Positions 26,846-53,094 of a stretch of 64,000 bases of DNA are shown one piece after another; position 1 is the first letter of the stretch; every line of letters begins with the position of its first letter. Under the pieces are notes generated by a model that saw only the letters and a list, made by a program, of their open reading frames with translations, was not told the origin of the DNA and searched no databases. Source of the stretch: Panorpa germanica (Eukaryota; Arthropoda; Insecta; Mecoptera; Panorpidae); NCBI GenBank assembly GCA_963678705.1, contig OY783219.1:2232001-2296000 (forward strand), in the 5' to 3' direction. The position numbers were made by a program, and so were the translations under genes.

Positions 26846-29190
26846 ATTCAAACATTACAAAAATACAACAATTTTTTAAGGAATTTACTTTAGAATTTAT
26901 GAAACTACTAAGGACATAACACCGACCGGTTGCTGAAGTCATTCTTATGGTAAAAGTTAGTTAACTTGGACAGTTAAGTAGAAATGACATTAGATCGTTT
27001 TGCCGACTTTGTAGCAGAAACTGAATCGGCCGAAAAAATTACCGTTACTTTCAATTGATTGATAATTGCTCTCTATTGCGCGTATCACGGATAGGATTTA
27101 TCTTTAGGAGAGAATATATGGTAAAGGTAATTGAAATACAATGTACCAATCTCAAAGATATAGCAAACAAAACACTAACCTAATAATAATAAAAATGATT
27201 TTCTTTTTCCAGGCAACATGTTGGTGTTTTCTGATTTTATCAAATACGTCTTCTATCTATAACATAAGATTAACATTTTTCATCATGTCTTGGCAACGGT
27301 GGCACTGAATTCAAGAAAGCATTGTGCCCATACACCCCTCCCACTCATCTCCACAACATTCGTCGTACTTATGACGTAATCCTTATTTGTATTTTGTGAT
27401 TTTGTAACATCATATTCCATGACATTTTTTTCTGCTCAAGATTTTTTTTTTCTTTTGTTATAATAAAATTTCAGTATAGCAGTAACAATAAATTGTCCGT
27501 CCACAAGTTCTTATGCTGTAACCTGCTCCAAATGGGGTTGGAACCCTTTAAATTTGATTATATACACAAAGATAACTATATAAGGGTTCTTTATGTGTAT
27601 ATTTTGATGGCCGTTTCTTTTTCTTGCACCCCCGTAGTTAAGTTATACATTATACTGTATTTGTTTATTAAATGAAACATAAGATGTTAGATTTTTGGTA
27701 ATATTTTACGTAAAAATGTTTACCCAGATTGTCATTGGGATTCAGCTTACCAATCCATTCAATTCAGCGTAATCAATGTTATCCAACATAATAAACATTA
27801 CCTGTTACGCAAACAATTTTACCTAATATTCAACGTTTTGTGATCTACTTATCGGTTTATTGAAAAGTAAACACATTAAAATAATCTAATAACTTCTTAA
27901 GAAGACCCTTTTAAAGATTAAACAATCTTAAGAACCCTAATTATTCTGAAAATTTGAAGTCGATTGGTTTCAGGACTAATTTCATCAAAGATCGAATCAT
28001 TTGCATTAGTAGCAATGAGAGTGAACGAGAGACAAATACATTTTTCTATTACTAAAGAAGTCTTTTCGCTGATGGACACACTATCTGGACATCCGAACAC
28101 CATAATCTATGGGCATAAGGCAAAACGTGCGTAGTGCCTAGAAACGATTCTTAGATTGAATACGTAATGGCGAATTTACATCGATTTTCTAACTCAATTT
28201 ATGTTTATTTCTTTTTTTTTCATAAGGGTACTTTATTTTTAGGGGTTGTATGTATGTTAAGTTGACACAGGTATCTACTGCTGGACTACCCACCATCCCT
28301 TATAGGGTTCATCAAATGTTACGTCTTCAAAATATATTATTTTAATGATTCGTTATAGTGTACGTCTCAATAACGCGAGTTTCAGAGATATTTTCATATA
28401 GAAAAGCGTTTCAGCATTGCTCTATTCGCGTTATAAAGAACTTTGTCCATATTTCACGTACGATCGTAACAAATATAATGAACCGCAACCCAGACGTTGT
28501 TTTCCAGTTGGATAAATCTTTTCTACTTCCCCAAACAGTTATCATCTTTCAGAGATTTCCGTTAATTGCTGATTTAGGGGCTACTTTTACTATTGCAGAT
28601 TAAACACAATTATTCAACATCACTTGCTGAGTCCAGCAACCACATTGGGGATGAAGTTAATTATCGATTACGCTTATTGAGTTCTCTGCAACCTCTGAAC
28701 CCTTTGCCCTAGCCCTAACCCTAGCCATAGTGTATTCCTAACCGTAGCCGCAGGCCAAGACCCTCACCAGTCATCAGAAAACACCACTGGGAGTTCATGA
28801 AAAGGGTCTAGACTATAGCCCATGCTCCAGGCTAGATGGAGATGGAGCTGGAGCTGGCTGAGGTTCTCCGAGATCAGGATTTGAGGTCGTATTATACATT
28901 TTGATATGCTGCCAAAATATATTAAAAGTTGAAACAATAAATCTAAGTTTATTATCATGTAGTTAGGAGCACAGAGTGTTCCAAAATACAGATAGCGTTA
29001 ATATAGAATTTAGTTGTGTATAAGGAATACAAAAAACCCAAAGATACAGACTGTTTCTTGGTCACAAAAATCCCGGAACTTCGCGGGATTTTAGGAATTA
29101 TGAAAATAATATTTAGGAATTAAAAATCAAAATATTCTTTTACCTAAAAATTATATTCCCTAATTAAATAAAATAAACAATTATAAATAG
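26846..29190. other. AT-rich sequence, no gene seen
   Basis: Bases 27949-28045 resemble 4997-5095 (AATTTGAAGTCGATTG, GAATCATTTGCAT, AATGAGAGTGAA.GA). A GC-richer plus-strand frame at 28358-28603 has no recognised similarity. C-rich islands occur near 27335. Confidence 0.5.
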
Positions 29191-29450
29191 GTAAAGAAAT
29201 TATATTTCTTTAGTTGATAACATTGACCAGAGATATTATCACTGCATTCTGGTCAGATGAGCTAACGGTATATATTAGTTATAGTATATACATTAATTGT
29301 AGTGTGTGCCAACTGCCAACGCAGTTGATATTTGGAATCGACAGAATTCACTGTCTAATTAAATAATAAACTTTAAATGTTGTTCCTTTGATTTCAGAAG
29401 CAAGACATAAGTTTGATTAAAAATATACAATTCCTAAAATGTCTTATATA
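29191..29450 (+). repeat. Dispersed repeat family A, copy 4
   Basis: It starts GTAAAGAAATTATATTTCTT and contains the hairpin arms (TTGACCAGA / TCTGGTCAG), GTGTGTGCCAACTGCC and the TTCCTAAAATGTCTTATATA tail shared with copy 1. An internal part of the 3' half is deleted. Confidence 0.75.
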
Positions 29451-32237: not shown

Positions 32238-32828
32238 AATCAGAATCAACTAAAACCAAATCAAAAACAATCCAACAACATCATAATCAACAACAACCAA
32301 ATCAAAAACAATCCAACAACATCGAAATCAAAACCAACAACCACAGGACCAGCAAGTAACAAACTTAAACCAATCTATCAACATCAGAATCAACAATAAC
32401 CAAATCAAAAACAATCCAACAACATCGACATCAGATCCAACAACCACAGGACCAACAAGAAGCAAACTTAAACCAATTCAACAACATCAGAATCAACATT
32501 AACCAAATTAAAAACAATCCAACAACATCAGAATCAACAATAACCAAATCAAAAACAATCCAACAACATCGACATCAGATCCAACAACCACAGGACCAAC
32601 AAGAAGCAAACTTAAACCAATTCAACAACATCAGAATCAACATTAACCAAATTAAAAACAATCCAACAACATTGGTAGCAGAACAAACAACCACAGGACC
32701 AACAAGAAACAATCTTAAACCTATCCATCAACATCAGAATCAACAACAACCAAATCAAAAACAATCCAACAACATCAGAATCAACAACAATCAAATCAAA
32801 AACAATCCAACAACGTCGACAGCAGAAA
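32238..32828 (+). repeat. Minisatellite with 247-bp higher-order unit
   Basis: Two monomers alternate. A is 41 bp, running CATCAGAATCAACAACAACC onward. B is 62 bp, starting CATCGACATCAGATCCAACA and containing CCACAGGACC. The order is A A B A B, A A B A B, A A and a partial B. A starts: 32238, 32279, 32382, 32485, 32526, 32629, 32732 and 32773. B starts: 32320, 32423, 32567, 32670 and 32814. Equivalent monomers are therefore spaced exactly 247 bp apart. Neither 41, 62 nor 247 is a multiple of three, so no protein frame is maintained. The plus strand is CA-rich and almost free of G. Confidence 0.9.
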
Positions 32829-34218: not shown

Positions 34219-34555
34219 TTTTTTTTATACACAATCTAGGCATGTAACCTTTTATCGCCGCTAATATTGTTCTGCTTCTTCTTATACTTTATATCCAGAC
34301 AATAAGAATGATCTATTTATGCCTACTGCTGTTATAAATTTCGGTTTCTCAATCAAAAAGGCGGTGTTAATAAGAAGCGTCTGCGAAGTCTGTAGCACCG
34401 CCCTTTGGAGTCCATTTCTTGCCATTGCTGTATTTTGACATTGCCACAGAATGTGGTCATCTGCCTCCTCTTCACCACATTCGCATTTAGGGTTTGGAAC
34501 GAATTTGTTTCTTGCTAGATGCTTCGCACCTCCAGTATGATTCATTAGTCTTGAT
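34219..34555 (-). mobile_element. 5'-truncated LINE insertion (copy 2)
   Basis: The minus strand encodes SRLMNHTGGAKHLARNK, PNPKCECGEEEADDHILWQC (C-x-C-x7-H-x4-C), then GLQRAVLQTSQTLL, FLIEKPKFITAV and a stop near 34282. This is the C-terminus of a non-LTR retrotransposon ORF2. The 3' UTR and an A tail (poly-T on plus at 34219-34226) follow. The 13-bp direct repeat GTGTAAAGAAGAT at 34206-34218 and 34556-34568 is the target-site duplication, so the 5' truncation point lies inside ORF2. Relative to copy 1 it keeps the frame further but lacks one codon in the knuckle loop. Confidence 0.85.
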
Positions 34556-34568
34556 GTGTAAAGAAGAT

Positions 34569-35274
34569 CATGTAGTTTCACTACATATGTCGCTAAAACT
34601 CAATTACTCAATTCACATTTGCAAAGATGTTGACGATGCAGGTCCACCACACTTATTGACTAGTTTCATGATACTATTTAGGTTTCACGTTACTTCCCTC
34701 GTCTCACATTACACACTTCTCTGGAACGCACAGCAATCTGTGCACCAAGTAGATCCAGCAGCGGCGCTACAAGTCTGCCTTAGTAAGGTAAGCAGTAAGT
34801 CAGTCCCGTGTCCCGTGTCCCGTGTCCCGCTACGCAAGCAAATCCAACGGAGAACTGAAAATGTAACGTGTGGTATGCAAATATACCGTGCCGTTCAACT
34901 GATGCTGATGGTGAACTTGATATAGAAATTATTCAAATTAAATAGCACAGCACATTGACCTTGAGTCAACTAATTAATGCAGGAATTTACAGATAAATAT
35001 TTCATTTCCTTTTAATTAAGTAATGGTCCGGAAATAGAAACTAAACAAAAAGTCAATTGACTAGTCACAGGTGCGCTATTTCTGTCTTCCGTTTAAATAA
35101 CTTGATTAATAAAATATTATACTTTTGCTAATATTAATTATTCATTAATTAAGTTGCAGCGAAGAAGGCATTTCTTCTTATTATTAGGTTTCCTTGGAAT
35201 ATTCGAAAGGAAACAATCTTAAGATTCTCAATTGATCAATCAAGATTTGATTTTATTCTTCATTCTTATTTCTT
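34569..35274. other. Sequence between LINE and duplicated array, no gene seen
   Basis: CCCGTGT repeats three times at about 34804-34830. A GC-richer plus-strand stretch at 34640-34860 is open but unrecognised. The remainder is AT-rich. Confidence 0.45.
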
Positions 35275-35457
35275 CTTTGTCTTTTGTTAATTTCCAATTA
35301 TTCGCAACCTAATGCTAAATCTAAATAAAATAAAAAACAGAACCTATTCTCGAACCTATAAACCGCAGAAAAACACAAAAAAAAATTCAAAGTCATATTG
35401 AAAAAATTGCAACAAGTGTCAAGCATGCACAATATTTACATCCCTTCACCAAAAAAG

Positions 35458-35642
35458 CAGTAGTTTCCAAACTGTGGGGCATGGCACTTAAGGTGCACGG
35501 GAATATCGATAGCAATTTACCTAATTCCCTACCTAGCACCTATATTTAACTAAAAACCCGAAAAAAAAGGTATAAGAAAGAGAGAAAGGGAGGAGGGCAT
35601 TACTACTTTTATTTGCAGTTAAGTCAAGTTTGGAAACTACTG
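35458..35642. mobile_element. hAT-like miniature element, copy 1
   Basis: Perfect 16-bp terminal inverted repeats CAGTAGTTTCCAAACT (35458-35473) and AGTTTGGAAACTACTG (35627-35642). The CAGTRGTT...CCAAACT end resembles hAT-type ends. The 185-bp interior is noncoding. No convincing 8-bp target duplication is left. Copies occur at 41359-41547 and 40809-40967, at the same place in the duplicated blocks, so the insertion predates the duplications. Confidence 0.7.
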
Positions 35643-35664
35643 TAATAATTTAAAAATCACTCAC

Positions 35665-35702
35665 CAGAGCTCATTGTCACTGCTTTTGAACCATGAAGTG
35701 AG
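35665..35702 (-). other. Exon-like module E9, copy B
   Basis: A 38-nt segment between a minus-strand acceptor (TTCTTTACAG) and donor (GTGAGTG). Copy A at 41567-41604 has the same length and both sites. Confidence 0.5.
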
Positions 35703-35782
35703 CTGTAAAGAAAGAAAATTGATTAGATAAATATTTAAAACAAATTAGAATATATGTTTAGTATAAATAGTTTGATAATTAC

Positions 35783-35848
35783 CTATTTTATAATATCCTG
35801 GCGCAAGATGGCTCCTGCCGATAAAGATGAACTGCTACAAACTGCAAG
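35783..35848 (-). other. Exon-like module E8, copy B
   Basis: A 66-nt segment between acceptor TTTTTTTTCAG and donor GTAATT on the minus strand. Copy A (41685-41751) is 67 nt. The single-base difference changes the frame. Confidence 0.5.
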
Positions 35849-35940
35849 CTGAAAAAAAACCTGCAACAAAAATAATTATTTAATAAAAATGTTTACCAAA
35901 TATATATTATTTAATATTTTCAGATAAATGGTTTACTTAC

Positions 35941-36009
35941 TTATTAATTAAAACCAAAGACCGGTTATAAATCATGCAGGCAGTGGGGTACGAAGGTCCT
36001 GTAGTCCAT
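35941..36009 (-). other. Exon-like module E7, copy B
   Basis: A 69-nt segment between acceptor GTTGTTACAG and donor GTAAGTAAAC. It starts ATGGACTACAGGACCTTCGT like copy A (41839-41927, 89 nt), but about 20 bases are missing and a stop follows after 14 codons. Confidence 0.5.
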
Positions 36010-36093
36010 CTGTAACAACGGAAAAGCATTGGTTAGAAAATAATTATCAATTTTAAATATTAATATGATATCGACATTGAAATCTTGAATTAC

Positions 36094-36148
36094 CTTCCTT
36101 CTGGAAGTCCAGCGCAAGAAGGCTCCCAGCCTCTGCTTCCCCGTTGCG
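36094..36148 (-). other. Exon-like module E6, copy B
   Basis: A 55-nt segment ending CTTCCAGAAGGAAG before donor GTAATT. The acceptor (AAAATAAG) is weak. Copy A is 42012-42068. Confidence 0.4.
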
Positions 36149-36222
36149 CTTATTTTAAAAAAATTTAGTTTAAAGCACTGTCACATTTAATGTTTATTGT
36201 CTTTTCACTTTTGTTTAAAATC

Positions 36223-36500
36223 TCTAGGAGCTTATCCCGCACTAAGCTCAACTAGAACGAACCGAACCGAACCGATTTATTTAAAATAATTTGACTGTTA
36301 TTAATTAATAATTAAATTTTAAATTTCTAGGAGCTTATTCCGCACGAAACTCAACTAGAACGACCCGAACCGAACCGATTTATTTATAAATTTAATTTAG
36401 AATCACTATAAATTTTAATTATTATTAATTAATAACGAAATTTTTAATCACTACTAGCTTATCGCGCACGAAGCTACATCGCGAAACGAACGAAAGCTGT
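36223..36500. repeat. Three degenerate tandem units, about 103-bp period
   Basis: TCTAGGAGCTTAT.CCGCAC and ACTAGAACGA.CCGAACCGAA occur at 36223 and 36326, with a more diverged third unit from about 36449. A weaker relative lies in copy A near 42485-42545. Confidence 0.6.
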
Positions 36501-36692
36501 AGGGAAGAAAACATACATACATCTAAAAAATATTTAACTAATCCATTAAAAATTATTTTTTCCAATTTAAAAAAAAGTTGAAAATTTGTAAAACATAGTA
36601 AATGTTTTTCTAAATTAATTGGAATAAATTTTTAATAAATTAGGCGACATTTGTTGCAATACCACCACCAAATAAATGTAAAAAAAACTCAC

Positions 36693-36778
36693 GGTCTGAA
36701 CTCAGCTATTAATTATACAGCAAATAGATGCCATCACAGCGCCAAAGAAGTCTTACTTGTAGCAGTCTTGTCGATATT
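36693..36778 (-). other. Exon-like module E5, copy B
   Basis: An 86-nt segment between acceptor AATTCTTACAG and donor GTGAGTTT. It shares GGCGCTGTGATG with copy A (42712-42826). All three frames contain a stop. Confidence 0.45.
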
Positions 36779-37035
36779 CTGTAAGAATTCAGAAAGTTAT
36801 ATTCCAATTGAAAACAAAATCGAAAAATAATTTGTCGAAATATTTGTAAACAATAATTTAATGAAATGAATTAACAAGAGCTAAAAAAGGGCCGTCGTCC
36901 TAGGAAGCACGTAAATTATTAATAAAAAAAATTTTTAAAAAGTAATAATAATTTAAAAATATTAGGAAAAAAAATTAAAAACTACAATTTCTACAAGAAA
37001 TAAAGGAACAAATTTCATAATAAAAGAACTTCCAC

Positions 37036-37131
37036 ATATTGTTTTTATAAAAAAAAAGCAGAACATTATTAGGTGCTATAAAAGGGTACGTGGAATCCCG
37101 AGAAATCATAATAAAAATAAAAAAGAAAAAA
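37036..37131 (+). mobile_element. LINE 3' UTR fragment (copy 3)
   Basis: GCAGAACATTATTAGGTGCT and the downstream AAAAGGGTACGTGGAA match the 3' UTR of the 30-kb and 34-kb LINE copies, followed by an A-rich tail. AACTTC.AC at 37027-37035 and 37132-37140 may be the target-site duplication. It is an extremely 5'-truncated insertion. Confidence 0.6.
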
Positions 37132-37242
37132 AACTTCTACGTAGATTATATTCAAAAAGATAAAATAATTAAAAATAATTAATTTAAAAGAAAAGAATTA
37201 ATAGCAAAATGTGTCAATAAATAAACAAAACAAAGTACTTAC

Positions 37243-37550
37243 AATGTAAACACAATCAGAGTTCCATTGTCCTCCACGTCAAGGTCAATCCATCACCGGT
37301 ATACGGGCAGAAGATTATGCCGGACACACACTATCCAATACGCAAAGCATCGACATGCCCAAACACACACACACTAATCCACTTTCACATAACTTAAATC
37401 ACTTATTGTTATTTGTCACTTAATAATTTGTTTAAACAATACACTTAATTCACATGTAATTTTTTTATAAAGGTACACAAAAAAAAATACATAACCTAAA
37501 CGTCATTTTATTTTTACTGCCGCCATTTTATTTTGACAGCTGTAAAATTA
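37243..37550 (-). ncRNA. Candidate first exon of a minus-strand transcript
   Basis: A GC-richer stretch ends at a strong donor (GTAAGTACTT, plus-strand ACTTAC at 37237-37242). Its upstream side carries promoter-like motifs (next entry). ATG codons within it open only very short frames, of 14, 3 and 4 codons including the stop, so it looks like a noncoding leader or the start of a long noncoding RNA rather than a coding exon. The start site is approximate. Downstream on this strand are modules E5 to E9 of copy B. Transcription is inferred, not shown. Confidence 0.4.
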
Positions 37551-37608
37551 GTGTTGCCCGATGTTTAATTAATTTTGTTGTGGCCCCGATATATCGATAC
37601 TATCGATA
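37519..37608 (-). promoter_or_regulatory. Candidate promoter with paired TATCGATA
   Basis: Two perfect TATCGATA motifs, 37592-37599 and 37601-37608, nine bases apart. TATCGATA is the DREF/BEAF-type element of insect housekeeping promoters. A GCCGCCATTTTA motif lies 60-70 bases nearer the candidate first exon. The arrangement would suit minus-strand initiation near 37500-37550. This is based on motifs alone. Confidence 0.45.
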
Positions 37609-37849
37609 TTCACTGTTACCATAGACACATTTGGTCGACAGTCCGTAGAATTAGTAGAAAAGTGTTGCCATAATTTTGAGCGGTCCAGAAGCCAATGCGA
37701 TTAAGTCTATAATATTTCCAGGCATGCTAAAATGAAAATATTTAAAAAAATAATTAAAATTAAATTTATAATTTCAACGTATATATGTAATATACTTATA
37801 TATACAACAATTACTATACTTACTTACAATTTAAATTTTGGAATATGAT

Positions 37850-38020
37850 GTGTCTGATGATACATATAATAGCCGATAGTATTTAGGTTCGATCCCTGGA
37901 CCATCGCTATATTAATTGTGAGTGTATGCCGCATCTGCTCTGTGAAGTCACTGCATATTTCGCTCAAGGTCGTCGCAGCACTAGGAGTTCATAACAACAA
38001 CAAGCCCCAACTGTAACAAA
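37850..38020 (+). repeat. Possible tRNA-derived SINE
   Basis: GGTTCGATCCCTGG at about 37886 is a perfect B-box-like sequence. A GC-richer body and an ATAACAACAACAA-like tail follow. No clear A box or tRNA fold is present upstream, so this is not a tRNA gene. Confidence 0.3.
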
Positions 38021-38099
38021 TGTACACAATATTCTGTTATGCAAACCATAAAGGCAAAGAATATGTGTGTATGTCTCAATAGAAATACAATTCACTTAC

Positions 38100-38232
38100 A
38101 ATTTACAAATTGTAGGCTGAGTAGAAGTTTGCTATGGAGCTGAAGCACCGTGTACATTCCAGGCTGAACTAGAGTGCAGCAGGACATGGAGTTTGCCATC
38201 GCTGGACTTCCAGATAGTAAACACTGCACCCA
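38100..38232 (-). other. Exon-like module E2 (TGGGTGCAG module), copy B
   Basis: A 133-nt segment between acceptor CATTTACAG and donor GTAAGTG on the minus strand. One frame is open throughout (WVQCLLSGSPAMANS...). Another reads VFTIWKSSDGKLHVLLHSSS and stops near the end. The related segment at 43569-43625 keeps the acceptor but then diverges. Confidence 0.45.
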
Positions 38233-38610
38233 CTGTAAATGAAATATTTTTAATATGAGATGTTGTTAAAAAAAGCAGTTCATAAATATAATAAAATTGC
38301 TAACAATTTAAACCATCGTCAAAGGCGCTAGGAAACTTGAAGCTAGAATATTACATAAAAGAATGATTTATAATATAAAGAAATGAAATTATTACAAGTT
38401 AACAAAAATGAAACACAGATATCTGAACAATAGAAAAAAACCGCATTGTCCTAAAACAGGTTAGAACACGTTTTCATGTAGTGCAATACTAACTTGATAA
38501 GTAAAATTACAGTAATATTAACTTGGCAATTATGAATTTAATACTTTTTACTAATTTCTAGAGCACGAATTAATAATTTTAGTTTTTTATTAATATTTTT
38601 GTGGAAATAC

Positions 38611-38702
38611 CTCATTAGACTTTGTGGCAGCCATTGATGAACTCGACTGTATGCATTAGATAAGCATGAGGTTCGAACCAGCAAGCACAACGCTGGCGGC
38701 AT
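38611..38702 (-). other. Exon-like module E1, copy B
   Basis: A 92-nt segment between acceptor TTTGTTTCATAG and donor GTATTTCC. It begins with an ATG that is open for the whole module (MPPALCLLVRTS...). The duplicate at 44023-44119 is 97 nt and frame-shifted relative to it. Confidence 0.45.
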
Positions 38703-38999
38703 CTATGAAACAAAAGCGAATTAACATTACAGTGTATAATTTGTTAGCGCTATGTATTTACGCACATTTTAAATGTATATTTTAAAATTTCAATAAATAA
38801 AAATCATATTTTTCTAATAACGTTGTAGTTCTCAACAGATACAAATTGTACCAAATTAATGTTTTATGTTATCCAATATATTTGTCATATATATTGACAC
38901 CTTAATAAAGATTTATTGCTGTCTTACGAGCAAAATAACCCCTTCCGTCTCAGGAACTACCCCAAAGCATTTTTACATGATATAATAATATTAGAATAC

Positions 39000-39166
39000 T
39001 TTCCATTTTTGTGAGCACTGTGGTGGTGCGCCTTGAGCCTCCAGAAGATCAATTACGACTGGATACAATGTAAATTTCCGCGGATCCTTTACATATATAA
39101 CGGCGAGGGCTCACTGGTGGCTGGATCGGTCCATTGGAAGTGCCGTGTTGGTATTTGGTGGAGAAG
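39000..39166 (-). other. Exon-like module E3, repeat 1
   Basis: A 167-nt segment between a weak acceptor (TTTTTTCTATAG) and donor GTATTC. Two further copies, 39903-40070 and 40519-40686, are 168 nt each. Frames are not shared among the three. Confidence 0.5.
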
Positions 39167-39496
39167 CTATAGAAAAAAATCTATCAAAAATAGCAAAAAC
39201 TTGATGATTAACTAGAAATAAATGCTATTTAAATTTATAATTTTATTTAATTGATTATGCGCTTGAAAAAAGCAGCGGTATAGTCACCTTATGTGAGACC
39301 TTAACACCATAGAAATTGCCTACACAGTGGTACCACCAACCACTTTGAAATATATAGCGCTGCTCTGCTGAGTTTATTATTACACACCTATGTAAAAATG
39401 TACAGGTTCTTTAATTTGTAAATTCATACGTAGAAATAAAGCTACCATCATAAAAAAATAAAATGATACTTTAATAACAAAGTGTATTCAATTTAC

Positions 39497-39631
39497 CTAA
39501 TAACAAAATCAGAAGACCAGATTTACTACGAGAATGCTTGCCCTTACAGCTCCAGGAGTTTGTCAACGGCAGCACCTGGTGCATCTGGAAATTGTCGTGT
39601 GCACATGTGAAATGTCCGCTTGGTCTTAAGC
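39497..39631 (-). other. Exon-like module E4, copy B
   Basis: A 135-nt segment between acceptor TAAAGTTATAG and donor GTAAATT. One frame reads LKTKRTFHMCTRQFPDAPG, then AAVDKLLEL and a stop. The copy at 43161-43289 gives FQAKRTISHMCVRQSPD, then AAVDELLEL and a stop. The length difference is made of indels of 3 and 9 bases, so the frame is kept. Confidence 0.5.
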
Positions 39632-39902
39632 CTATAACTTTAACAATAAATATAAAATACATTAATAATAATTCGCAAGTAAATATGTCTTTAAAATTGT
39701 ACAATAAATTTATATTATATTTCATTTTAATAATTTTGTAAATGTAGCAATTAAAATAATAGTACACCATGGACGCGTTGTGCTCTAGGAAGTCGTGGAT
39801 ACTCGCAGGTGTAAATAAATATATTCTAAAATACAGACAAACATTTTTCACTATTTTCTTACTGATAAAATAATTAAAAAACTTATAAATATATTAAAAT
39901 AC

Positions 39903-40070
39903 TTTCCATTTTTGTGAGCACAGTGATGGCGCGCCTTGCGCCTCCAGAAGATCAATTACGACTGGATACAATGTAAATTTCCATGGGTCCTTTTCGTTTG
40001 TATTGCCTACGTGTCACAGGTAGCTGGATTTATTCACTGGAACTCCAGTCGTTGGTATTTGTTTGAGGAG
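39903..40070 (-). other. Exon-like module E3, repeat 2
   Basis: A 168-nt segment with acceptor TTTATTTTATAG and donor GTATTTTA. It is the second of three copies at about 0.6-0.9 kb spacing. Confidence 0.5.
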
Positions 40071-40277
40071 CTATAAAATAAAAAAAACATCTATTTAAAA
40101 AAAGCAACGACTCTTATGAGCATTGAGTTTTTAACAATAAATACAAAATACATTCCTAATAATTCGCTGTAAAAACTCACAAGAAAATATGTCTAAAATT
40201 ATTCAATAAATTTATATTAAAAAAATATAAAACAAATATTTTTCACTATTCTTTTCCTAATAAAATAATTAAAATAC

Positions 40278-40407
40278 CTATTCAATATGGTTGCATTTTT
40301 TTCAACACGTGTTCAACTTTGAGAAAACAGATATGAAATTCAGTGTACCATGTTCACGCTGTGCTCTAGAAAGCCGTGGACCCCCCGCAGGTGTCCAGAA
40401 ATATATT
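40278..40407 (-). other. Exon-like module (YFWTPAG module), repeat 2
   Basis: Acceptor TCTGTATTTTAG, donor GTATTTTA. It encodes IYFWTPAGGPRLSRAQREHG in one frame. Relatives are 43451-43568 and a partial copy starting at 39825. The three differ by frameshifting indels in part of the module. Confidence 0.45.
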
Positions 40408-40518
40408 CTAAAATACAGACAAATCTTTTGCACTATTTCTTTACTGATAAAATATTTAAAATACTTATAACTATATTGCTGTATTTTAACATATACTGAT
40501 AAAATAATAATGAAATAC

Positions 40519-40686
40519 TTTCCATTTTTGAGGGCACAGTGCTGGCGCGCCTTGGCCTTCCTGAAGATCAATTATGACTGGATACAATGTAAATTTCCGC
40601 GGATCATTTTCATATGTATTGCCTACTGGTCACAGGTAGCTGGATTTGTCCACTGGAACTCCAGGCGTTGGTGTATGTTTGAGAAG
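40519..40686 (-). other. Exon-like module E3, repeat 3
   Basis: A 168-nt segment with acceptor TTTATTTTATAG and donor GTATTTCA, matching repeats 1 and 2. Confidence 0.5.
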
Positions 40687-40808
40687 CTATAAAATAAAAA
40701 AACATCTATTTAAAAAAAGCAACGACTCTGGAAATTATTTAATAACAAAGTTTTCAAACACATGGAGTGTCAAATATACACAGTACAAATATTTTTAACA
40801 CAAAACAA

Positions 40809-40967
40809 CAGTAGCTTCCAAAGTGTGGGCCATAGTACTTAAGGTTAAAAATTTTATTAATATAATTATCTTGCTAAATCCTACATTTTAATAAAAAATC
40901 AACGCGTGTAACTATTGAATAAGACTACAAAAATAAGAAGAAGAGTACTTAAGTTTGGAAACCATAA
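40809..40967. mobile_element. hAT-like miniature element, copy 3 (degenerate)
   Basis: It begins CAGTAGCTTCCAAAGTGTGG and ends AAGTTTGGAAACCAT. The interior is largely diverged. Like the other copies it lies next to a GAGCTC-containing module. Confidence 0.5.
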
Positions 40968-40983
40968 AAATTACTAACCGAGC

Positions 40984-41172
40984 TCAACATTGTAGGGTCT
41001 TTATTCTTTTTTCTCCGTCCATTCTAGGTTGCATATTTTGAGCAGCTAGCTTCAGCATGGAATTGGTGATTTCATAAAATCTGGACCCGTACTGCGTGCT
41101 TCCTTTAGCTCCTGTAATGCTGCAGTTACCTCGGGGATCCTGGTGCTGGAAATCTTTCTTTATATTCCTCAT
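40984..41172 (-). CDS. Candidate 62-codon ORF, unknown
   Basis: An ATG-initiated frame in a GC-richer patch: MRNIKKDFQHQDPRG, then SITGAKGSTQYGSRFYEITN, MLKLAAQNMQPRMDGEKRI and a stop at the 5' edge of a GAGCTC module. The protein is hydrophilic, has no signal peptide or membrane segment, and is not recognised. It lies downstream of module E9 in copy A on the same strand, so it could be a 3' exon of that transcript. The copy-B block has no equivalent. Chance is a real alternative. Confidence 0.25.
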   Translation of the reverse strand: MRNIKKDFQHQDPRGNCSITGAKGSTQYGSRFYEITNSMLKLAAQNMQPRMDGEKRIKTLQC

Positions 41173-41358
41173 AATATCTTGTCCTTTTCTTTCTTCTGTC
41201 GTCTAAGTTTATTTCCAATTTTGTGAAACCTAATCCTAAATAAAAAAATAAGAAAAACATATTCTGCGAAGTTCATCGCAGAAAAACACAAAAAATTCAA
41301 ATCAGCAATGCAACAAGTGTCATGCATGTACAAATATTTTCATCCCTTCACCAAAAAG

Positions 41359-41547
41359 CAGTAGTTTCCAAACTGTGGCGCATGGCACTTAAGGTGCACG
41401 GGAATATCGATATCAATATACCTAATTTCCTACCTAACACCTATATTTAACTAAAAACCCGAAAAAAGTGTAAAAAAGGAGGGTGGATAATGGGGAGGAG
41501 GGCAGTACTACTTCAAAATGTAGCTAAGTCCAGTTTGGAAACCACTG
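41359..41547. mobile_element. hAT-like miniature element, copy 2
   Basis: Ends are CAGTAGTTTCCAAACTGTGG and CAGTTTGGAAACCACTG. The interior matches 35458-35642. It contains one TATCGATA, which shows that this motif also occurs away from promoters. Confidence 0.7.
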
Positions 41548-41566
41548 AAATTTAAAAAGCACTCAC

Positions 41567-41604
41567 CGGAGCTCATAGTCACTGCTTTCGAACCATGAAG
41601 TGAG
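41567..41604 (-). other. Exon-like module E9, copy A
   Basis: 38 nt, acceptor GTTACAG, donor GTGAGTG, the same length as copy B. Confidence 0.5.
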
Positions 41605-41684
41605 CTGTAACTAAAGAAAATTGATTAGACAAATGTATAAAATAAATTAGAATATATGTATAGTATAAATAATGAAATAATTAC

Positions 41685-42068
41685 CTATTTTATAATATCC
41701 TGGTGCAAGATGGCTCCTGCGGCTAAAGATGAACTGCCTACAAACTGCAAGCTGAAAAAAATCTGCAACAAAAATAATTATTTATTAAAAATGTTTACCA
41801 AATATATATTATTTAAAATTTTCATATAAATGGTTTACCTACTTTTTAATTTCAAACAAAGACCGTTCATAAATCTGGTAGGCAGGGTGGTTGACAGGGT
41901 GGTCCTGACGAAGGTCCTGTAGTCCATCTGTAACAGCAGAAAAGCATTGGTTAGAAAATAATTATCAATTTTAAATAACAATAAAATATCGACATTGAAA
42001 TATTGAATTACCTTTCTTCTGGAAGTCCAGCGCACGAAGGCCCCCCTCAGCCACTGCTATTCACGGCA
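41685..42068 (-). CDS. Candidate spliced short ORF (modules E6-E7-E8, copy A)
   Basis: Joining modules 42012-42068 (57 nt), 41839-41927 (89 nt) and 41685-41751 (67 nt) at their GT-AG sites gives one frame. It is open for 15 codons after a TAG in the first module. An ATG at the first base of the second module begins MDYRTFVRTTLSTTLPTR. The frame crosses the next junction (AG plus C) and continues LQFVGSSSLAAGAILHQ, then DIIK and TAG at the last bases of the third module. The ATG-to-stop product is 51 residues, basic at its start, with no known domain. In copy B the same modules have net indels that stop the frame after 14 codons. It could be a young short protein, a decayed one, or a frame in a noncoding RNA. 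Confidence 0.35.
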
Positions 42069-42711
42069 CTAACACTTAATTTAAACCACTGTTTGTTAAG
42101 GGTTTTATTTAAAATACTTTTGTCCATTGTTCATTAAAATTTTCACTTATGTTTAAAACTCGAAAAACGTAATTTTAAATTTGTTTAAATAATTTAATTA
42201 AATTGTTACTCGCTAAACACAGTTAATTGTAACGTAACAATAGTTACCAATTACGTAAACAATTTAATCTAATATGCAAAGTTTTGTAACGAATTAAATA
42301 TTACATACAATTAATATCTAATAATTAAATAATTAAATCATAGTCTTATTAAACAGTCAAAATCTTTTTTAATTGATCATACGGCAATACGTAAAGAATT
42401 TAATGTAAAAGGTAAACTTTTTGATGTAAAATAAACCTAAAAAACATGTAACTGTGTGTAGTGAGTAAGTCAATTTGATTTTTATCGGTTCCACGCACGA
42501 CGAACCGGAATACGAAGCGAAACCGAAAACCGTTTGCTGTAGGGACAAAAAATAGAACAGTGGCATAATTTCAAAATAAGAATCTAACCCATTAAAAATC
42601 GGCGAATCTATTTTTACTAAATTGGTAATTAATGTAAATTTAAACGATTTTTAATGAATTAGACGACACTTGTTGCAAAGAACCATCACCATTAAATGAA
42701 ATTGGACTTGC

Positions 42712-42826
42712 GATCTGAACTCTGGGTACTGCAAACTGCTAACTGCTACTAGACATCACAGCGCCTAAAGAGCCCCGCTTGCGTCTCAGCAACTACTCCT
42801 ACATCCAGTAGATGACCTTCTTGCAA
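42712..42826 (-). other. Exon-like module E5, copy A, with GC donor
   Basis: A 115-nt segment with a good acceptor (TTTATTTATTTCAG) and a donor reading GCAAGT where copy B has GTGAGT. One frame reads LQEGHLLDVGVVAETQAGLF before a stop. Confidence 0.45.
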
Positions 42827-43160
42827 CTGAAATAAATAAAGCAATAATTAGAAAATGTTGTTCTTGCCAACTATTAATAATTAGAAATAAATTCTTTTTA
42901 AATTTATAATTTTATTTTAGGTTTAAAAAAAGCAGCGGTATAGTCACCTTATGTGAGTCCTTAAAACCATAGAAACTGCGTACACTGTGGTACCACCGAC
43001 CACTTCCAAATATATAGCACTGCTCTGCTGAGGTTATTATTACACACCTATGTAAAAATGTACAGGTTCTTTAATTTATCAATTTAATTGCAAAAATACA
43101 GGTAACCTCATAAATAAATAAATAAAATGATATTTTAATAACAAAGTGTATTAAATTTAC

Positions 43161-43289
43161 CTAAAAATAATGTCAGAAGATCAGATTTACTAGAAGACTG
43201 CTTGCCCTTACAGCTCCAGGAGTTCGTCAACAGCAGCATCTGGAGATTGTCGTACACACATGTGAGATATAGTCCGTTTGGCCTGGAAC
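43161..43289 (-). other. Exon-like module E4, copy A
   Basis: 129 nt, acceptor TTATTGTTATAG, donor GTAAATT. See 39497-39631 for the in-frame comparison. Confidence 0.5.
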
Positions 43290-43450
43290 CTATAACAATA
43301 AGTACAAAATACATTAATAATAATTCGCTTACAAGAAAATATTTCTCTAAAATTATAAAATAAACTTATATTTAATAAATACTCGTATAAGACATATATT
43401 CTACATACAACATATTCCACAATTCTTTTACTAATAAAATATTTAAATAC

Positions 43451-43568
43451 CTATTCAATATGGTTGCAGTTTGTTCAACTTTATGAAAACAGTTAGCAAA
43501 TTCAATGTACCATGGTCACGCTGTGCTCTAGGAAGTCCTGGACATTCGCAGGTTTCCAGAAATATATT
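43451..43568 (-). other. Exon-like module (YFWKPAN module), repeat 3
   Basis: 118 nt, acceptor TCTGTATTTTAG, donor GTATTTAAA. One frame starts IYFWKPANVQDFLEHSVTMV. The partial copy from 39825 reads IYLFTPASIHDFLEHNASMV, with mostly conservative replacements. Both then stop or diverge. Confidence 0.45.
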
Positions 43569-44022
43569 CTAAAATACAGACAAACATGCCGTCGCTGGAC
43601 GTCCAGGTAGTAAACACTGCACCCACTGTAAATGAAATATTTTTAATATAAGAAAAATATTTAAAAAGAGCATTTCATAAATATAATAAAATTGCTAACA
43701 ATTTAAACCATCGTCAAAGGCGCTAGGAAACTTTGAAGCTAGAATATTACATAAAAAGAATGATTTATAATATAAAGAAATGAAATTATTACAAGTTAAC
43801 ATAAATGAAACACACATATCTGAACAATAGAAAAAACCACATTGTCCTAAAACAGGTTAGAACACGTTTTCATATAGTGTAATTCTAACTTGATAAAAAT
43901 TATGATCTTTAAGAAAAATTAAAGTAATAATAAATTGACAATTATGGATTTAATACTTTTAACTAATTTCTAGAATACATACCAGTTATTTTACTTTTTT
44001 AATAATATTTTTGTGGAAATAC

Positions 44023-44119
44023 CTCATTAGGCTTTGTGGCAGCCATTGATGAACTCGACTCTATGCATTAGATAATCATAAAGGTCGCGAGGCACAGCAA
44101 GTACAACGCTAACTGGCAT
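44023..44119 (-). other. Exon-like module E1, copy A
   Basis: 97 nt, acceptor TTTGTTTCATAG, donor GTATTTCC, a duplicate of 38611-38702. Confidence 0.45.
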
Positions 44120-44513
44120 CTATGAAACAAAAGCGAATTAAAATTGTAAGCTGGAAAAGGTCTGGTATCGAGTATTATCTCTGGTATGGAGCTGAAGCAC
44201 CATGTACATTCCAGGCTGAACTACACATAATAAACATTACAGTCCATTCAAAACACCACAAAAATCTTGCATAAATTATGTACTTTCTTTAAAACAAATG
44301 TGTTTTAATATAAAGATATTAATTTAGAAAATATATTTACAAACTACTGTCAAAGTTACAGAGAGGTTAGCAAAATTGAAACACATTACAAGAGTACTGT
44401 GTAACCTAAAAAAATGAATGTTTTTGTATGTTGAATCAGCTAGCCCCACATTTTAATATTATTGTTAGACTTTAATTAAACGATATGATATAATGCATGC
44501 AGTTGTTACTTAC

Positions 44514-44610
44514 TTTAAAAGACATTTGTAGTAAAGAAATTCGTTTTGACATTTTGTCAGTGGCACTTCATATATCTTTCTCTGTTGTTGCACTTGGTTA
44601 TGTTGACAAC
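44514..44610 (-). ncRNA. Candidate first exon, copy A transcript
   Basis: It ends at donor GTAAGTAAC. Near its end an ATG opens MSKRISLLQMSFK up to the splice site, after a tiny upstream frame. A TATCGATA at 44781-44788 lies upstream on this strand. The 5' limit is a guess and transcription is inferred only. Confidence 0.3.
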
Positions 44611-44780
44611 ACTTTATTAATATTAACACATTTCATATTATATACGTAACACAAATAAATAAATATTCAATATTTAGGCATTGTTTTAATTAATTTTTAA
44701 TGTAAATGTCAACTAGTTAACTACAAATGGCTACCTGTTGCCAAAAATACTATGACATAAAAACATTCAAAACAAGTATT

Positions 44781-44788
44781 TATCGATA
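44781..44788. promoter_or_regulatory. TATCGATA motif upstream of copy A
   Basis: A perfect palindromic TATCGATA about 180-270 bases upstream of the candidate first exon, parallel to the pair at 37592-37608. A single copy of an 8-mer is weak evidence. Confidence 0.3.
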
Positions 44789-46111
44789 TGTTTAAAGATA
44801 TGTAACACTTGGAACTACTAAAGGATACTTTAATAAACAATTAACACAATTTATATAACTCGTAATTACTTTTTATAATTAATAAAATATATTAAACTTG
44901 GACTGACATACCAGAGCTGTCAAATATTTTACTGCTCGCTAGAGGTACTGCGAACTGCAGTAGGTAATGCAAGGCATGTGTCCTATGTAATACAATGTAT
45001 GTAAACATAGAGTGACTCATCCGCTAAATTTAAAGGGGTGTTTAAAATATTTGCAAGGTAAATATAATTTACTGCATCTCTAGAATAAAAAACAGTAAGC
45101 GCGCTAGTACAGCAACACCAGAATAATTATAATGGACCACATGTACTAATTAATTCATAATTCTTTTATTCACTTATTTCTACTTTATTTTATTCATCAT
45201 CGCTGGCAGTAAAAAATAGTAGCAGCAAAAAAAAATTATTCTTTATTTAACCGAGCTGTAGAACAAAAAGAGAGCTTACAATTATCATCGATATACGCGG
45301 ACATGAACAAGAACAATACGAGACCCTCTACACCCGCAACCCGCACCCCCAAGGAGTCACATAGGCACCCCAAACACCCAGTGCACCATGGTTTCACCAC
45401 CAGCTAACTAGATCCAGCTTCCTATGTCGTTACAGATCGTGCAGATCGTTCACAATTTGTTAAATTTATTTTATCAGTTAAACTTTAACCATATCTTATG
45501 ATTTTATTTATCTTTGTTCGCCAGATTCAAAAATTATATGTGTTGCACGAGTCAGCTGTAAGTAGTAACTGAAGTTAAACTAGGTTAAGCTTAGGTAAAA
45601 TTAAGATTTTAAATTTTGCAACAAATTATTAATGAAATATTGTGAACCCATCTTACAGACCAATGAGTTTCTGTGATGCAACGCCGTGCTATGGAGAACT
45701 GTGACGAATGAGAACTGCTAGATGGGTGGCTGAAGGAGGGGAATGGGGAAGGGGGGCAGTACGTGTGGACCCCTTTGACGCGTCCGTTGCAATTCATACG
45801 GTTACATAACTATAATACCCGTAAAGAAAATTTTGGTAGTGTTGTACATTTGTAATTACATATGCCAATTTAGAAATTTGTCTTGCAGTGCAGTGTCCCT
45901 TTTGTAAGCTTGGTGCAAGGTAATTACAAGGTTCATTTACTACTTCATACACAGAAAATTATCTTGCAAAGTTTCACGCTTGCTAGCTTACTACAAGCTA
46001 ATTAAAGAATTATATTTTCAACCTGGGATGCTGTATACTATATTTTATTATTATATTCTTCACATTTCCAAATTAAATTTCTAGAATAACAAGACTTAGG
46101 CTTTTAAGGGT
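44789..46111. other. AT-rich sequence with G- and C-rich islands, no gene seen
   Basis: C-rich island at 45330-45395 and G-rich island at 45720-45762. No recognisable frame or RNA gene. Confidence 0.5.
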
Positions 46112-46425
46112 GAAAAAAAATTTAGCAACGAAAAACAAATTTTAGCGTCGAGAAACAAATTTTGGCGATGTAATATCAAATTCTCGCCGCGTAAAACAAA
46201 TTTTAGGGGGGAAAAATAAAATTTTAGCAACGAAAATCAAATTTTAGCGGCGAAGAACAAATTTTGGCGATGTAATATCAAATTTTCGCATGAAAAACAA
46301 ATGTTTGCCGAGAAAAAACAAATTTTAGAAGCAAAAAATAAAATTTTCGCAAGGAAAAGCAAAATTTTTTCGCAAAAAAACAAATTTTAGCGGCAGAAAC
46401 AAATTTTCGCTAAGATCTGCCACCC
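46112..46425 (+). repeat. Tandem repeat of about 20-bp units
   Basis: About 15 degenerate units of the form CAAATTTTAGCGGCGAAAAA. A variant unit CAAATTTTGGCGATGTAATA occurs at 46156 and 46258, 102 bp apart, which suggests a block of five units was itself duplicated. It is noncoding. Confidence 0.85.
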
Positions 46426-49400: not shown

Positions 49401-50056
49401 AGGAAAAACAAAAGTCACTAACTTGGTAACGCTGGTCCGATTTGAAAATGGTTTTCACCGTTGGATTCAGCGGAAAGTTTTACGTGAAAATACATTTTCA
49501 AAAGTTGAAAAACGCAAATTTTGAAAAATTTTCGCAGGTATTGAGAAATTCCTTTTGACCATCTTAAATTTAAAAAAGGTTTACAGAGTTTGAGTTACAT
49601 AAGACGATAGAATCATGATTTTGTTTAAGAAATATGGGGGAAGGGGATCATATAATAATGTTTATGGCAAGAAAAGGTTTACTTTAGATTATACGGTAGA
49701 TTGTTTCCCTAAAATAAAATTTAAAATCGACGCCTATGTTTTTTGTATAATATGTGTACGCCATGAGAGAGTAGGCTACATTTTGATGGCATTTAGAAGT
49801 CTGGACACGGACGTGCCATATGGCAGGCAGTAGGCAGTAGTGACTAGGCACTAGGCTATGGCAGCGTAGGGTATATTATATTTTTCATGGACATGCCAGT
49901 TTGCTCACGTTTGGTTCATTGACTATTGACTGGTACTGCCATCTAGATAGAGACTTATTTAACTTCGGATGACATAACATTATTATAATGTGACTTTTTT
50001 TATTTCAAGGAGAAAAAAATAAATCAAAAACATTTTTTTATTTTTAACGATAGAAT
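46426..50056. other. AT-rich sequence, no gene called
   Basis: A C-rich patch at 46600-46800 is open in two overlapping plus-strand frames with no recognisable product. A GC-richer minus-strand patch lies at 47280-47480. (AT)n runs lie near 48376 and 49338-49369. G-rich islands lie near 48015 and 49634. Confidence 0.45.
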
Positions 50057-50059
50057 AAT

Positions 50060-50800
50060 TAGACCAGGGTAGATAATTTTAGAAACATAAAAAAATTAAA
50101 GTAGAATGAAACCTATTGGAAATGGAAGGGAATACTACTAAAATGAATGGAAAAATAAATTACAGTCGATCTGAGGTTGGGAAGGGGTAGGGGGTGAGGT
50201 TTTAAGGGTAAAAATCGGTAAATCTCGATTTCCGGCAAAACTACAAGTCCTATCGAAAAAAGTTAAATGGCAAAGTTGTAGATAATAAAAAGATCTACAA
50301 CTTTTGTATCTACACTTTTACTCCATAACCTCAAAATTCATGTAAAAAATCCAAAAAACCACATTTTTGATTTTTTATTTATATCTTTTACAAAAAATTT
50401 TTTTTTTTCATGATATTTGGTGAAAACTTACCTCTTTATGTCCCAAACACACTGGAATTTTGAAGATTTAAAATAATAATTTTTTCACCCTATTATGACT
50501 CGATATATGAAAAAACACCCTAATTTTCAATCGAAAATTCTCACGTCAAAATATCTGATTTTTCAAAAAAGTCGGTGGGCTTTTTGTTCGTTGAAATCTC
50601 TATTTTCTGATGGTGTAAAAAAAAATATACATTACTATGGAAAATTTTTTCAGAAAATGCAAAAAATCGAAAAATATTAAAATTGAAATTTTTTTTTTAA
50701 TCTTTATGTACAATTTTGGGGTATTCATTAAAATTTTTACTTTAATTACTCGAAAAACGTTAGGTTCCATGTTAGATTAATAAACAAAAAATTGCAAGTC
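50060..50800 (+). repeat. Left terminal inverted repeat
   Basis: It pairs with 52341-53091. It includes a G-rich stretch (GGGAAGGGGTAGGGGGTGAG at about 50178-50199) and a 61-codon frame at 50495-50680 that is identical in the other arm only because the arms are nearly identical. Confidence 0.9.
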
Positions 50801-50999
50801 GAAATGTACTACTATAATTAACAACTAAATAAGTTAATAAAGTTAATATTTAATATGACATCTACAAAATTTTGAGAAAATTGTCGAATTTTCTTTAAAT
50901 TATATGCGTAGATGCCTATTTATTGCTATTTTAAAATTATACCTATATACCTGAGTGACCTTCGGAAAATTGTAGCCCATCAAAAGGTATTTCATAGAG

Positions 51000-52178
51000 A
51001 AGTGGGGAAGGGGCTTGGAGGGTCTGCGCCTTTCAACTAAAAAAGGAGAACGTAGTCGTAGAAAGACGTCAGACAATATTCCAGTGTTCAATTATCAAAA
51101 CCATACAAGAATACCATTTTTGCAAGAAAATTTTTTATCTAATGAGAAAAACAAAGACAAAATAATAAAATCGTTAATGCAAGTATTACAGTCAAAAGGA
51201 TTTTCCTGTAAACAAGCTAAAGAAGATGCTGATGCTGACATTATTAAGACCTCGATAGAAATTGCCAAAGATACTAATAAAACTGTCATTGTTGTACGAC
51301 AAGATATTGATCTTTTGGTATTTTTGAATCAATTAAATTCTAATAATCATAAAATTTATTTTCTCAAGCCCGGTTCTGGTGATAGTTTCAAATGTGAATC
51401 CGTCAAAAACATCGTTGCATTTCTGCATTGTTTTTCTGGTTGCGACACAACATCTGGATTTGCCGGAAAAGGAAAGAAAACTATCGTAAATTCATTATTA
51501 GACAATCAAAATTTGTCAAATTTGGCTAATATTTTTTTTAAAAAAGATGTAAACAAAGAAGATATAAAAAAAAATGGATTGAAATTAATTAAATCTATTT
51601 ATAAATGTAAAAAGGGTAATATATCACTGAATCAATTAAGATTTCAAAAATATCAATTGGCAAAAATTAAATCATCTTTCATATTGGCAAATCTCCCACC
51701 CACAGAAGGTGCAGCAGAACAACATTGTTACAGGGCATATTATCAGCTTCAAACGTGGCTGGGTAATGAATTGACAGCAACAGATTGGGGCTGGAAGCAA
51801 CATCAACATGGAATTATGCCCAAATTTACAGAAATGGAATTAATTCCGGAAAAATTGCTGAAAACTATTTGCTGCAGCTGTGAAACTGGATGTAATAGTT
51901 TAAAATGTAGCTGCCGAAAACATGGTTTAAAATGCACAAATTTATGCTCAAATTGTGATGGTTCTGAACAATGCGCCAATGTGGAGAAAAAAATCTACGA
52001 GGAAATTAATGATTCAGATGAAATTGCGGATGAAGAACCAATGCAGACCGAAAATAATGTTGGAGACGAAGACGGTGATGGTCTTGAAGATGTCGAAGAT
52101 CTACTAGAATCAGAAAGGCCTGTCGAATCTAACGATCAAGAAATATCATCAAAAAGACAGAAACTGATGAATAAGTGA
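51000..52178 (+). CDS. Transposon protein: FEN/XPG-like nuclease region plus CXC domain, N-terminally truncated
   Basis: The frame is open from 50976 to the stop at 52176-52178. There is no ATG at its head: the first in-frame ATG is at 51174. It either starts downstream of an intron (possible acceptor TTTCATAG at 50990-50997) or is truncated. Going along the protein: STKKGERSRRK, then FLQENFLSNEKNK, then the acidic DADADIIKT, QDIDLLVFL and GCDTTSGFAGKGK, which fit the metal-binding acidic residues of a FEN/PIN-like fold. Next is LPPTEGAAEQHCYRAYYQLQ with WLGNEL and DWGW, a conserved block of this family. Then comes the Cys-rich CCSCETGCNSLKCSCRKHGL with a second Cys cluster, a CXC (tesmin/MSL2-like) DNA-binding domain. 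The tail is acidic. Full-length relatives carry a long N-terminal region that is missing here. Confidence 0.8.
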   Translation, partial: KWGRGLEGLRLSTKKGERSRRKTSDNIPVFNYQNHTRIPFLQENFLSNEKNKDKIIKSLMQVLQSKGFSCKQAKEDADADIIKTSIEIAKDTNKTVIVVRQDIDLLVFLNQLNSNNHKIYFLKPGSGDSFKCESVKNIVAFLHCFSGCDTTSGFAGKGKKTIVNSLLDNQNLSNLANIFFKKDVNKEDIKKNGLKLIKSIYKCKKGNISLNQLRFQKYQLAKIKSSFILANLPPTEGAAEQHCYRAYYQLQTWLGNELTATDWGWKQHQHGIMPKFTEMELIPEKLLKTICCSCETGCNSLKCSCRKHGLKCTNLCSNCDGSEQCANVEKKIYEEINDSDEIADEEPMQTENNVGDEDGDGLEDVEDLLESERPVESNDQEISSKRQKLMNK

Positions 52179-52340
52179 TTCAAATTGAATACTATGTTTT
52201 GATAAATACAAAGATTAATGCTTTTAGAAATAATATAATGTATAGTGTAATCATTAAAAAAAATCTCTACTCAATAGTACGATTTACGTGTATATTTCTA
52301 TCTAATGAGATAGTTTTTTGCGATATTTATGTTTAATTGG

Positions 52341-53091
52341 TTTGTAATTTTTTTGTTTATTAATCTAACATGGAACCTAACGTTTTTCGAGTAATTAAAG
52401 TAAAAATTTTAATGAATACCTCAAAATTGTACATAAAGATTAAAAAAAATAATTTCGATTTTAATATTTTTCGATTTTTTGCATTTTCTGAAAAAATTTT
52501 CCATAGTAATGTATATTTTTTTTTACACCATCAGAAAATAGAGATTTCAACGAACAAAAAGCCCACCGACTTTTTTGAAAAATCAGATATTTTGACGTGA
52601 GAATTTTCGATTGAAAATTAGGGTGTTTTTTCATATATCGAGTCAAAATAGGGTGAAAAAATTAATATTTTAAATCTTCAAAATTCCAGTGTGTTTGGGA
52701 CATAAAGAGGTAAGTTTTCACCAAATATCATGAAAAAAAAAATTTTTTTGTAAAAGATATAAATAAAAAATCAAAAATGTGGTTTTTTGGATTTTTTACA
52801 TGAATTTTGAGGTTATGGAGTAAAAGTGTAGATACAAAAGTTGTAGATCTTTTTATTATCTACAACTTTGCCATTTAACTTTTTTCGATAGGACTTGTAG
52901 TTTTGCCGGAAATCGAGATTTACCGATTTTTACCCTTAAAACCTCACCCCCTACCCCTTCCCAACCTCAGATCGACTGTAATTTATTTTTCCTTTCATTT
53001 TAGTAGTATTCCCTTCCATTTCCAATAGATTTCATTCTACTTTAATTTTTTTATGTTTTTAATTATTTTTGACGGCTTCTACCCTGGTCTA
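52341..53091 (-). repeat. Right terminal inverted repeat
   Basis: The reverse complement of the left arm, with a few substitutions and indels. The outermost 14 bases match exactly. Confidence 0.9.
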
Positions 53092-53094
53092 AAT

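Follow-up and report, generated by a model that had tools for sequence, protein, structure and literature searches.

Background

Tandemly duplicated multi-exon genes for long noncoding RNAs (lncRNAs) form a general class, from which no particular family matched the locus described here in the searches made. A spliced lncRNA is an RNA of over 200 nt with canonically spliced exons from a single strand and no conserved frame for a protein. Host genes of small nucleolar RNAs (snoRNAs) are also multi-exon, and their exons drift more than their introns. The bicycle genes of aphids and relatives encode proteins with an N-terminal signal sequence and CYC motifs. They have many small internal exons, nearly all of them in phase 2, and change rapidly (PMC9168663). 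We analyzed a locus at 35266-44145 in a 64,000-nucleotide stretch of Panorpa germanica DNA (contig OY783219.1; hereafter the window), in which short exon-like modules recur on the minus strand. A narrow search of the literature on bicycle genes, duplicated lncRNAs and snoRNA hosts found no similar family. In the reading that we prefer, and to which we give about an even chance, the locus would be a minus-strand, spliced, lncRNA-like transcription unit that has been locally duplicated and rearranged and has evolved near neutrality. The locus is odd in detail, yet probably no more than a young noncoding or decaying gene of an ordinary kind.

Duplicated and rearranged modules

Self-comparison of the window and profile searches identified minus-strand blocks A, B, C, D, E and X, each present two or three times within 35266-44145. 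In the self-comparison, the two copies of block A (35266-36137 and 41187-42058) were 84% identical, those of block B (38194-38728 and 43587-44145) 87% and those of block D (39209-39716 and 42878-43372) 82%; E and C are each present in three copies and X in two. Profile searches with nine blocks or block parts revealed no further convincing copy in the window, the best stray match having an E-value of 0.2. The recurrence proposed in an earlier, sequence-only reading of this DNA was thus borne out. Nine kinds of module can be counted (A-a, A-b, A-c, A-d, B-a, C, D-a, D-b and E), and the lengths given there (38/38, 66/67, 167/168/168 and 135/129) are correct. The modules do not, as was also proposed, lie at matching positions. 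On the plus strand one copy reads A-X-D-C-B and the other A-X-(about 1.3 kb of unlike DNA)-B-E-D-C-E-C-E, which means that the block order is scrambled. A piece resembling the missing part of B-c is displaced to 44182-44223.

Splice signal on the minus strand

We scored 35000-45200 with a small gene finder and compared the summed score with 60 dinucleotide shuffles in 40-base blocks, which preserve local composition. The minus strand scored 169.8, as compared to 66.6 +/- 12.7 in the shuffles (highest 99.1), and none of the 60 reached it; the plus strand scored 52.3, as compared to 53.1 +/- 12.6. With the codon term removed, the splice sites alone gave 49.3 versus 20.4 +/- 7.0, again reached by none of the 60 shuffles, and none of 60 shuffles in 100-base blocks reached the minus-strand score. 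Duplicates count twice in such a sum, and the stretches were therefore scored apart. The z-scores were 4.9 for 41187-45020 (5.4 for 41187-44150 alone), 4.4 for 35200-38760 and 3.6 for 38760-41000, each with 0 of 60 shuffles at the real value. When the whole window was run at an intron cost of 6.0, the minus-strand model of the region was the densest, with 172 per 10 kb (next 167). In splice-only scoring of half-overlapping 3-kb tiles, minus-strand tiles of the region ranked 1, 2, 4 and 5 of 82 (z from 2.7 to 3.3); its other minus-strand tiles, starting at 36001, 37501 and 43501, had z of just 0.3, 0.4 and 1.7. The minus-strand splice signal claimed earlier is thus above chance, since it exceeds shuffles of the same local composition and is strand-specific.

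The exons of block A copy 1 contain 47% G+C and its introns 19%; across 23 modules the content is 47%, and in the DNA between them 26%. The observed/expected ratio of CpG was 0.63 in modules, 1.09 between modules and 0.79 in 77 other G+C-rich 100-base windows (bootstrap 0.035 for modules versus the other windows). Between copies, 42 of 69 CpG sites differed versus 51 of 120 GpC sites (p = 0.016). Germline methylation as a sign of transcription was considered on the basis of this CpG depletion and excess CpG change, but the effect is small and was given no weight.

Individual splice sites were scored with generic site weights, and a site of 6 bits or more was called strong. Both sites were strong in both copies for four of the nine kinds of module (A-b, A-c, A-d and D-b), so that the statement that each module is bounded by AG and GT was confirmed for these four and not for the other five. 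In copy 1, only the donor reached 6 bits in A-a and D-a, and only the acceptor in B-a, C and E; the D-a acceptor scored 4.3 in copy 1 and 7.0 in copy 2. The clearest module is A-d, with 12.0 bits for the acceptor and 11.5 bits for the donor in copy 1.

The splice sites had also been called conserved, with divergence as fast as that of the surrounding DNA named as the finding that would count against the claim. The AG or GT was retained at 30 of the 36 strong copy-1 sites on the minus strand (p = 0.12) and at 15 of the 20 on the plus strand (p = 0.55), where 73% is expected from an identity of 85.7%. Without the poorly aligned X, an exclusion chosen after the fact, the counts were 30 of 33 (p = 0.034) and 15 of 18 (p = 0.37), both versus 77% expected. 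Retention beyond the surroundings is thus weak at best.

Several of these results weigh against a spliced noncoding unit. The copies are non-independent, which inflates the z-score of the whole region, and the plus strand, too, was somewhat high when shuffled in 100-base blocks, just 3 of 60 shuffles reaching it. Five control stretches gave z-scores of -0.2, 0.7, 2.0, 2.9 and 3.3; the last three were also reached by none of 60 shuffles, and some signal is therefore present elsewhere in the window. At an intron cost of 7.5, a plus-strand model at 26409-28861 was denser than that of the region (103.5 versus 88.2 per 10 kb). Splice dinucleotides were retained just weakly over background, and an exon G+C content of 0.47 beside an intron content of 0.19 is also expected of a gene that was coding until recently. 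Some of these points would suit a reading in which the duplicated DNA is intergenic, AG and GT beside G+C-rich islands mimic exons, and nothing is spliced: the weak retention, the other stretches that exceed their shuffles, the several modules that lack a 6-bit donor, and the similar divergence of introns and modules described below. We regard this explanation as unlikely, because the signal is strand-specific and above shuffles that preserve local composition, and because in block A the 0.47/0.19 contrast falls between strong AG and GT sites.

Coordinates of the modules

All modules listed here are on the minus strand. Block A copy 1 (35266-36137) is defined by its match to copy 2, its site scores and its G+C contrast. 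It contains the exon-like modules A-a (from about 36150 to 36094, the upper end being approximate), A-b (35941-36009), A-c (35783-35848, alternatively from 35860) and A-d (35665-35702), and a candidate last exon runs from 35320 down, beyond an insert resembling a miniature inverted-repeat transposable element (MITE). In copy 2 (41187-42058, from the self-comparison) the corresponding modules lie at 42012 to about 42060 (A-a), 41843-41927 (A-b), 41685-41762 (A-c) and 41567-41604 (A-d), with a candidate last exon at 41130-41235. A decayed fragment of a third copy at 40807-41010, consisting of a MITE-like part and a remnant of the A-d end, was recognized by a profile match to 40807-40968 and by alignment.

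The MITE-like element itself (35458-35642, no strand assigned) has matching terminal inverted repeats, with CAGTAGTTTCCAAACT at both ends, and may be hAT-like; no 8-bp target-site duplication was found, and its flanks differ. Further copies at about 41358-41548 and at 40807-40968 accompany block A, and the element predates the duplication of that block.

Block B copy 1 (38103-38728) comprises the exon-like B-a (38611-38702) and B-c (38103-38234), the 87% match covering the part 38194-38728; in copy 2 (43587-44145) B-a is at 44023-44119 and B-c is truncated. Module C occurs at 39768-39825 and 43511-43568 (58 nt each) and at 40349-40407 (59 nt). The exons of block D span 39288-39631 in copy 1 (D-a 39497-39631, 135 nt; D-b 39288-39387, 100 nt) and 42948-43289 in copy 2 (D-a 43161-43289, 129 nt; D-b 42948-43047, 100 nt). 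Module E is found at 39000-39166 (167 nt), 39903-40070 (168 nt) and 40519-40686 (168 nt). Module X copy 1 (36692-36779) has the acceptor TTACAG and the donor GTGAGT; copy 2 (42704-42826) aligns poorly to it and has the donor GCAAGT. Candidate first exons lie at 37243-37539 for the downstream unit, proposed from sequence only and with TATCGATA motifs upstream, and at 44514-44734 for the upstream unit; both have a GTAAGT end and an approximate upper end.

Divergence between the copies

Modules differed at 131 of 958 sites and introns with flanks at 137 of 1,248 (p = 0.057); without one unalignable flank the comparison was 131 of 958 versus 122 of 1,220 (p = 0.009). In these counts some pairs share a copy and the module edges are hand-drawn. 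Composition accounts for part of the module excess, since CpG differs more often than GpC. There is no clear constraint on exons, introns or splice sites since the duplication. Since the exons changed no more slowly than the introns, at least one copy has been free of detectable constraint.

Divergence is patchy, with a variance-to-mean ratio over 40-base windows of 2.6 in A, 2.4 in B and 4.5 in E1/E2, and the B intron includes 160 bases with just 3 mismatches. Such a pattern would be accounted for by gene conversion or by separate duplications. The X copies differ at 68 of 157 aligned sites, a divergence so large that the history of X must differ from that of the other blocks. We consider it improbable that the exons outpace the introns under diversifying selection, in a lineage-specific locus whose exon cassettes would be duplicated and reshuffled to yield varying spliced RNAs or micro-exon proteins.

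Tests for a reading frame

The main rival to a noncoding unit is a small family of protein genes with short exons, either fast-changing or recently broken, in which the chained frames of A-a/A-b/A-c and D-a/D-b would be a coding remnant and one copy would be frameshifted. We hold this possible but doubtful. A coding gene was taken through a full gene model and all-frame counts, the latter also taking in the C and X exons of the chain, and was then unsupported by the frame tests. The gene model speaks for coding in that it joins 22 minus-strand segments, of which one is empty, in a single 423-aa open frame, though this frame crosses both copies. Both D-a indels (3 and 9 nt) are in frame, and a shorter exon model places the 1-nt indels of A-c and B-a outside the coding part, but frames are interrupted by a 16-nt gap in A-b and by a 1-nt indel in C3. 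Differences are exclusively nonsynonymous in D-b (0 synonymous, 10 nonsynonymous) and A-b (0 and 11), as under diversifying selection, with the reverse in A-d (3 and 0).

In 11 comparisons of gene-finder exons from A, B, D and E (C and X left out, E3 used twice), the nonsynonymous difference (pN) was 0.144 and the synonymous difference (pS) 0.132; the remaining aligned columns of A, B and D gave 0.116. With these exons, nonsynonymous change did not significantly exceed that of the other columns (p = 0.11). Mismatches were even over the codon positions (27, 29 and 24 of 187 each), and no conserved coding frame was detected between the paralogous copies. The higher divergence of modules and their high G+C content would also suit a coding origin, but CpG change may supply part of that excess.

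When the splice sites were held and the rest was shuffled, the shuffles equaled the real region (z 0.0; -0.2 to 1.1 for the separate stretches). The same score was -0.7 to -2.4 in the five control stretches and -4.2 on the plus strand of the region. The region thus lies on the coding side of the control stretches, and a faint or broken coding history is therefore possible. The frame test has power: in the core of copy 2 the real z was 0.27, as compared to 1.2 to 4.9 (mean 3.4) in 16 simulated coding fillings and -4.2 to 1.4 (mean -1.0) in 16 noncoding ones. Summed, the frame tests give no support to coding.

None of ten candidate peptides matched a Pfam family and neither of the two compared with PDB had a match; the minus-strand open reading frame (ORF) at 39474-39893 likewise matched no Pfam family. 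Orphan genes would also lack a match to a known domain or structure. A motif shared across modules (a W-S-S peptide or TGGANNTCCAG) was dropped, since the best of 218 cross-family pairs, a 15-nt match between A-a and A-c (p = 0.005), is about the chance level over 218 tests.

The local duplication and the minus-strand splicing architecture of the sequence-only reading are supported. Of the two products that it had offered, a spliced noncoding RNA is favored over very short, fast-changing proteins, because no frame signal was detected.

Searches for RNA families and foreign origin

A host gene for intronic small RNAs, of the snoRNA-host type, would keep its introns while its exons drift. The introns are short, some are almost identical between copies, and the modules are somewhat more variable, all as such a gene would have it. 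Across the window no Rfam family reached its gathering score; in 34800-45200 the sole match at E <= 5 was a bacterial leader at 35079-35096. A simple scan of the introns found no C/D-box pair, and no structure stood out among 12 stretches folded as RNA (z -1.35 to 0.79); the search did not cover novel H/ACA RNAs. An intronic small RNA is thus unsupported, and we consider a host gene of this type very improbable. ARAGORN found no tRNA in the window.

A viral or phage origin was also rejected: 38194-44145 had no DNA match in phages, and a 23-base stretch of a module had no match in viral contigs.

Other elements in the window

The window also holds LINE-like (long interspersed nuclear element) and MITE-like pieces and short A+T-rich intron-like spacers, which give it a eukaryotic look. 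At 36181-36507 three imperfect units recur at spacings of about 103 and 124 bases; on the minus strand, the first two of them have TTCGGTTCGG(T/G)TCG-type runs. By eye, 41000-41160 resembles a reverse-transcriptase piece. An ORF piece at 21439-21753 is like a LINE tail, with a sub-threshold zf-RVT match (E 0.004); another at 34285-34599 looks LINE-tail-like by eye only and has no Pfam match. The element at 50055-53096 has inverted repeats of about 748 bases, 97% alike, flanking a plus-strand ORF of 400 aa (50976-52175) with a Cys-rich C-terminus, and looks like a recently active DNA transposon. The ORF had nothing above the Pfam cut-off (best NYN, E 0.08), no PDB match and no confirmed relative in viral contigs. 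Other repeats are a tandem repeat at 32239-32827 with periods of 144 and 247 bases and one N/Q-rich open frame, a 20-base repeat, GAAAAACAAATTTTAGCGAC, in about 15 copies at 46112-46407, and four partial copies (1783-2060, 24031-24365, 26699-26848 and 29174-29450) of a dispersed repeat about 300 bases long.

Proposed history and comparison with known systems

The duplication, the strand-specific splice signal, the G+C contrast and the lack of a detectable frame signal are direct observations, from which we infer transcription, splicing in vivo, the lack of a protein and the mechanism of duplication. The ancestor may have been a multi-exon minus-strand unit with short G+C-rich exons and short A+T-rich introns. 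Local duplication of this unit, presumably by unequal exchange, would have been followed by partial rearrangement. The outcome would be two larger copies, at about 44.7-41.1 kb and at about 38.7-35.2 kb, separated by additional C-D-E units. The product would most likely be a spliced RNA with no conserved reading frame. If spliced, the locus offers a small, clean example of exon duplication and scrambling in a multi-exon gene, whether noncoding or orphan, and its aged copies permit a direct measure of what such genes retain of their exons, introns and splice sites. By itself it points to no new mechanism.

The locus resembles snoRNA host genes in being multi-exon, with exons that drift more than introns, but unlike them no snoRNA was found in its introns. 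With the bicycle genes it shares many small internal exons, rapid change and the lack of a database match (PMC9168663). It differs from them in having no supported frame and in its module lengths, which in copy 1 are 69, 66, 38, 92, 58, 135, 100 and 167 nt (A-a omitted, as its start is approximate), only three of the eight being multiples of three. Like tandemly duplicated lncRNA genes, it combines several short, drifting exons with local duplicates and lacks a detectable conserved frame; it is unlike them in its scrambled block order, in an exon G+C content far over that of the introns, and in being known from sequence alone.

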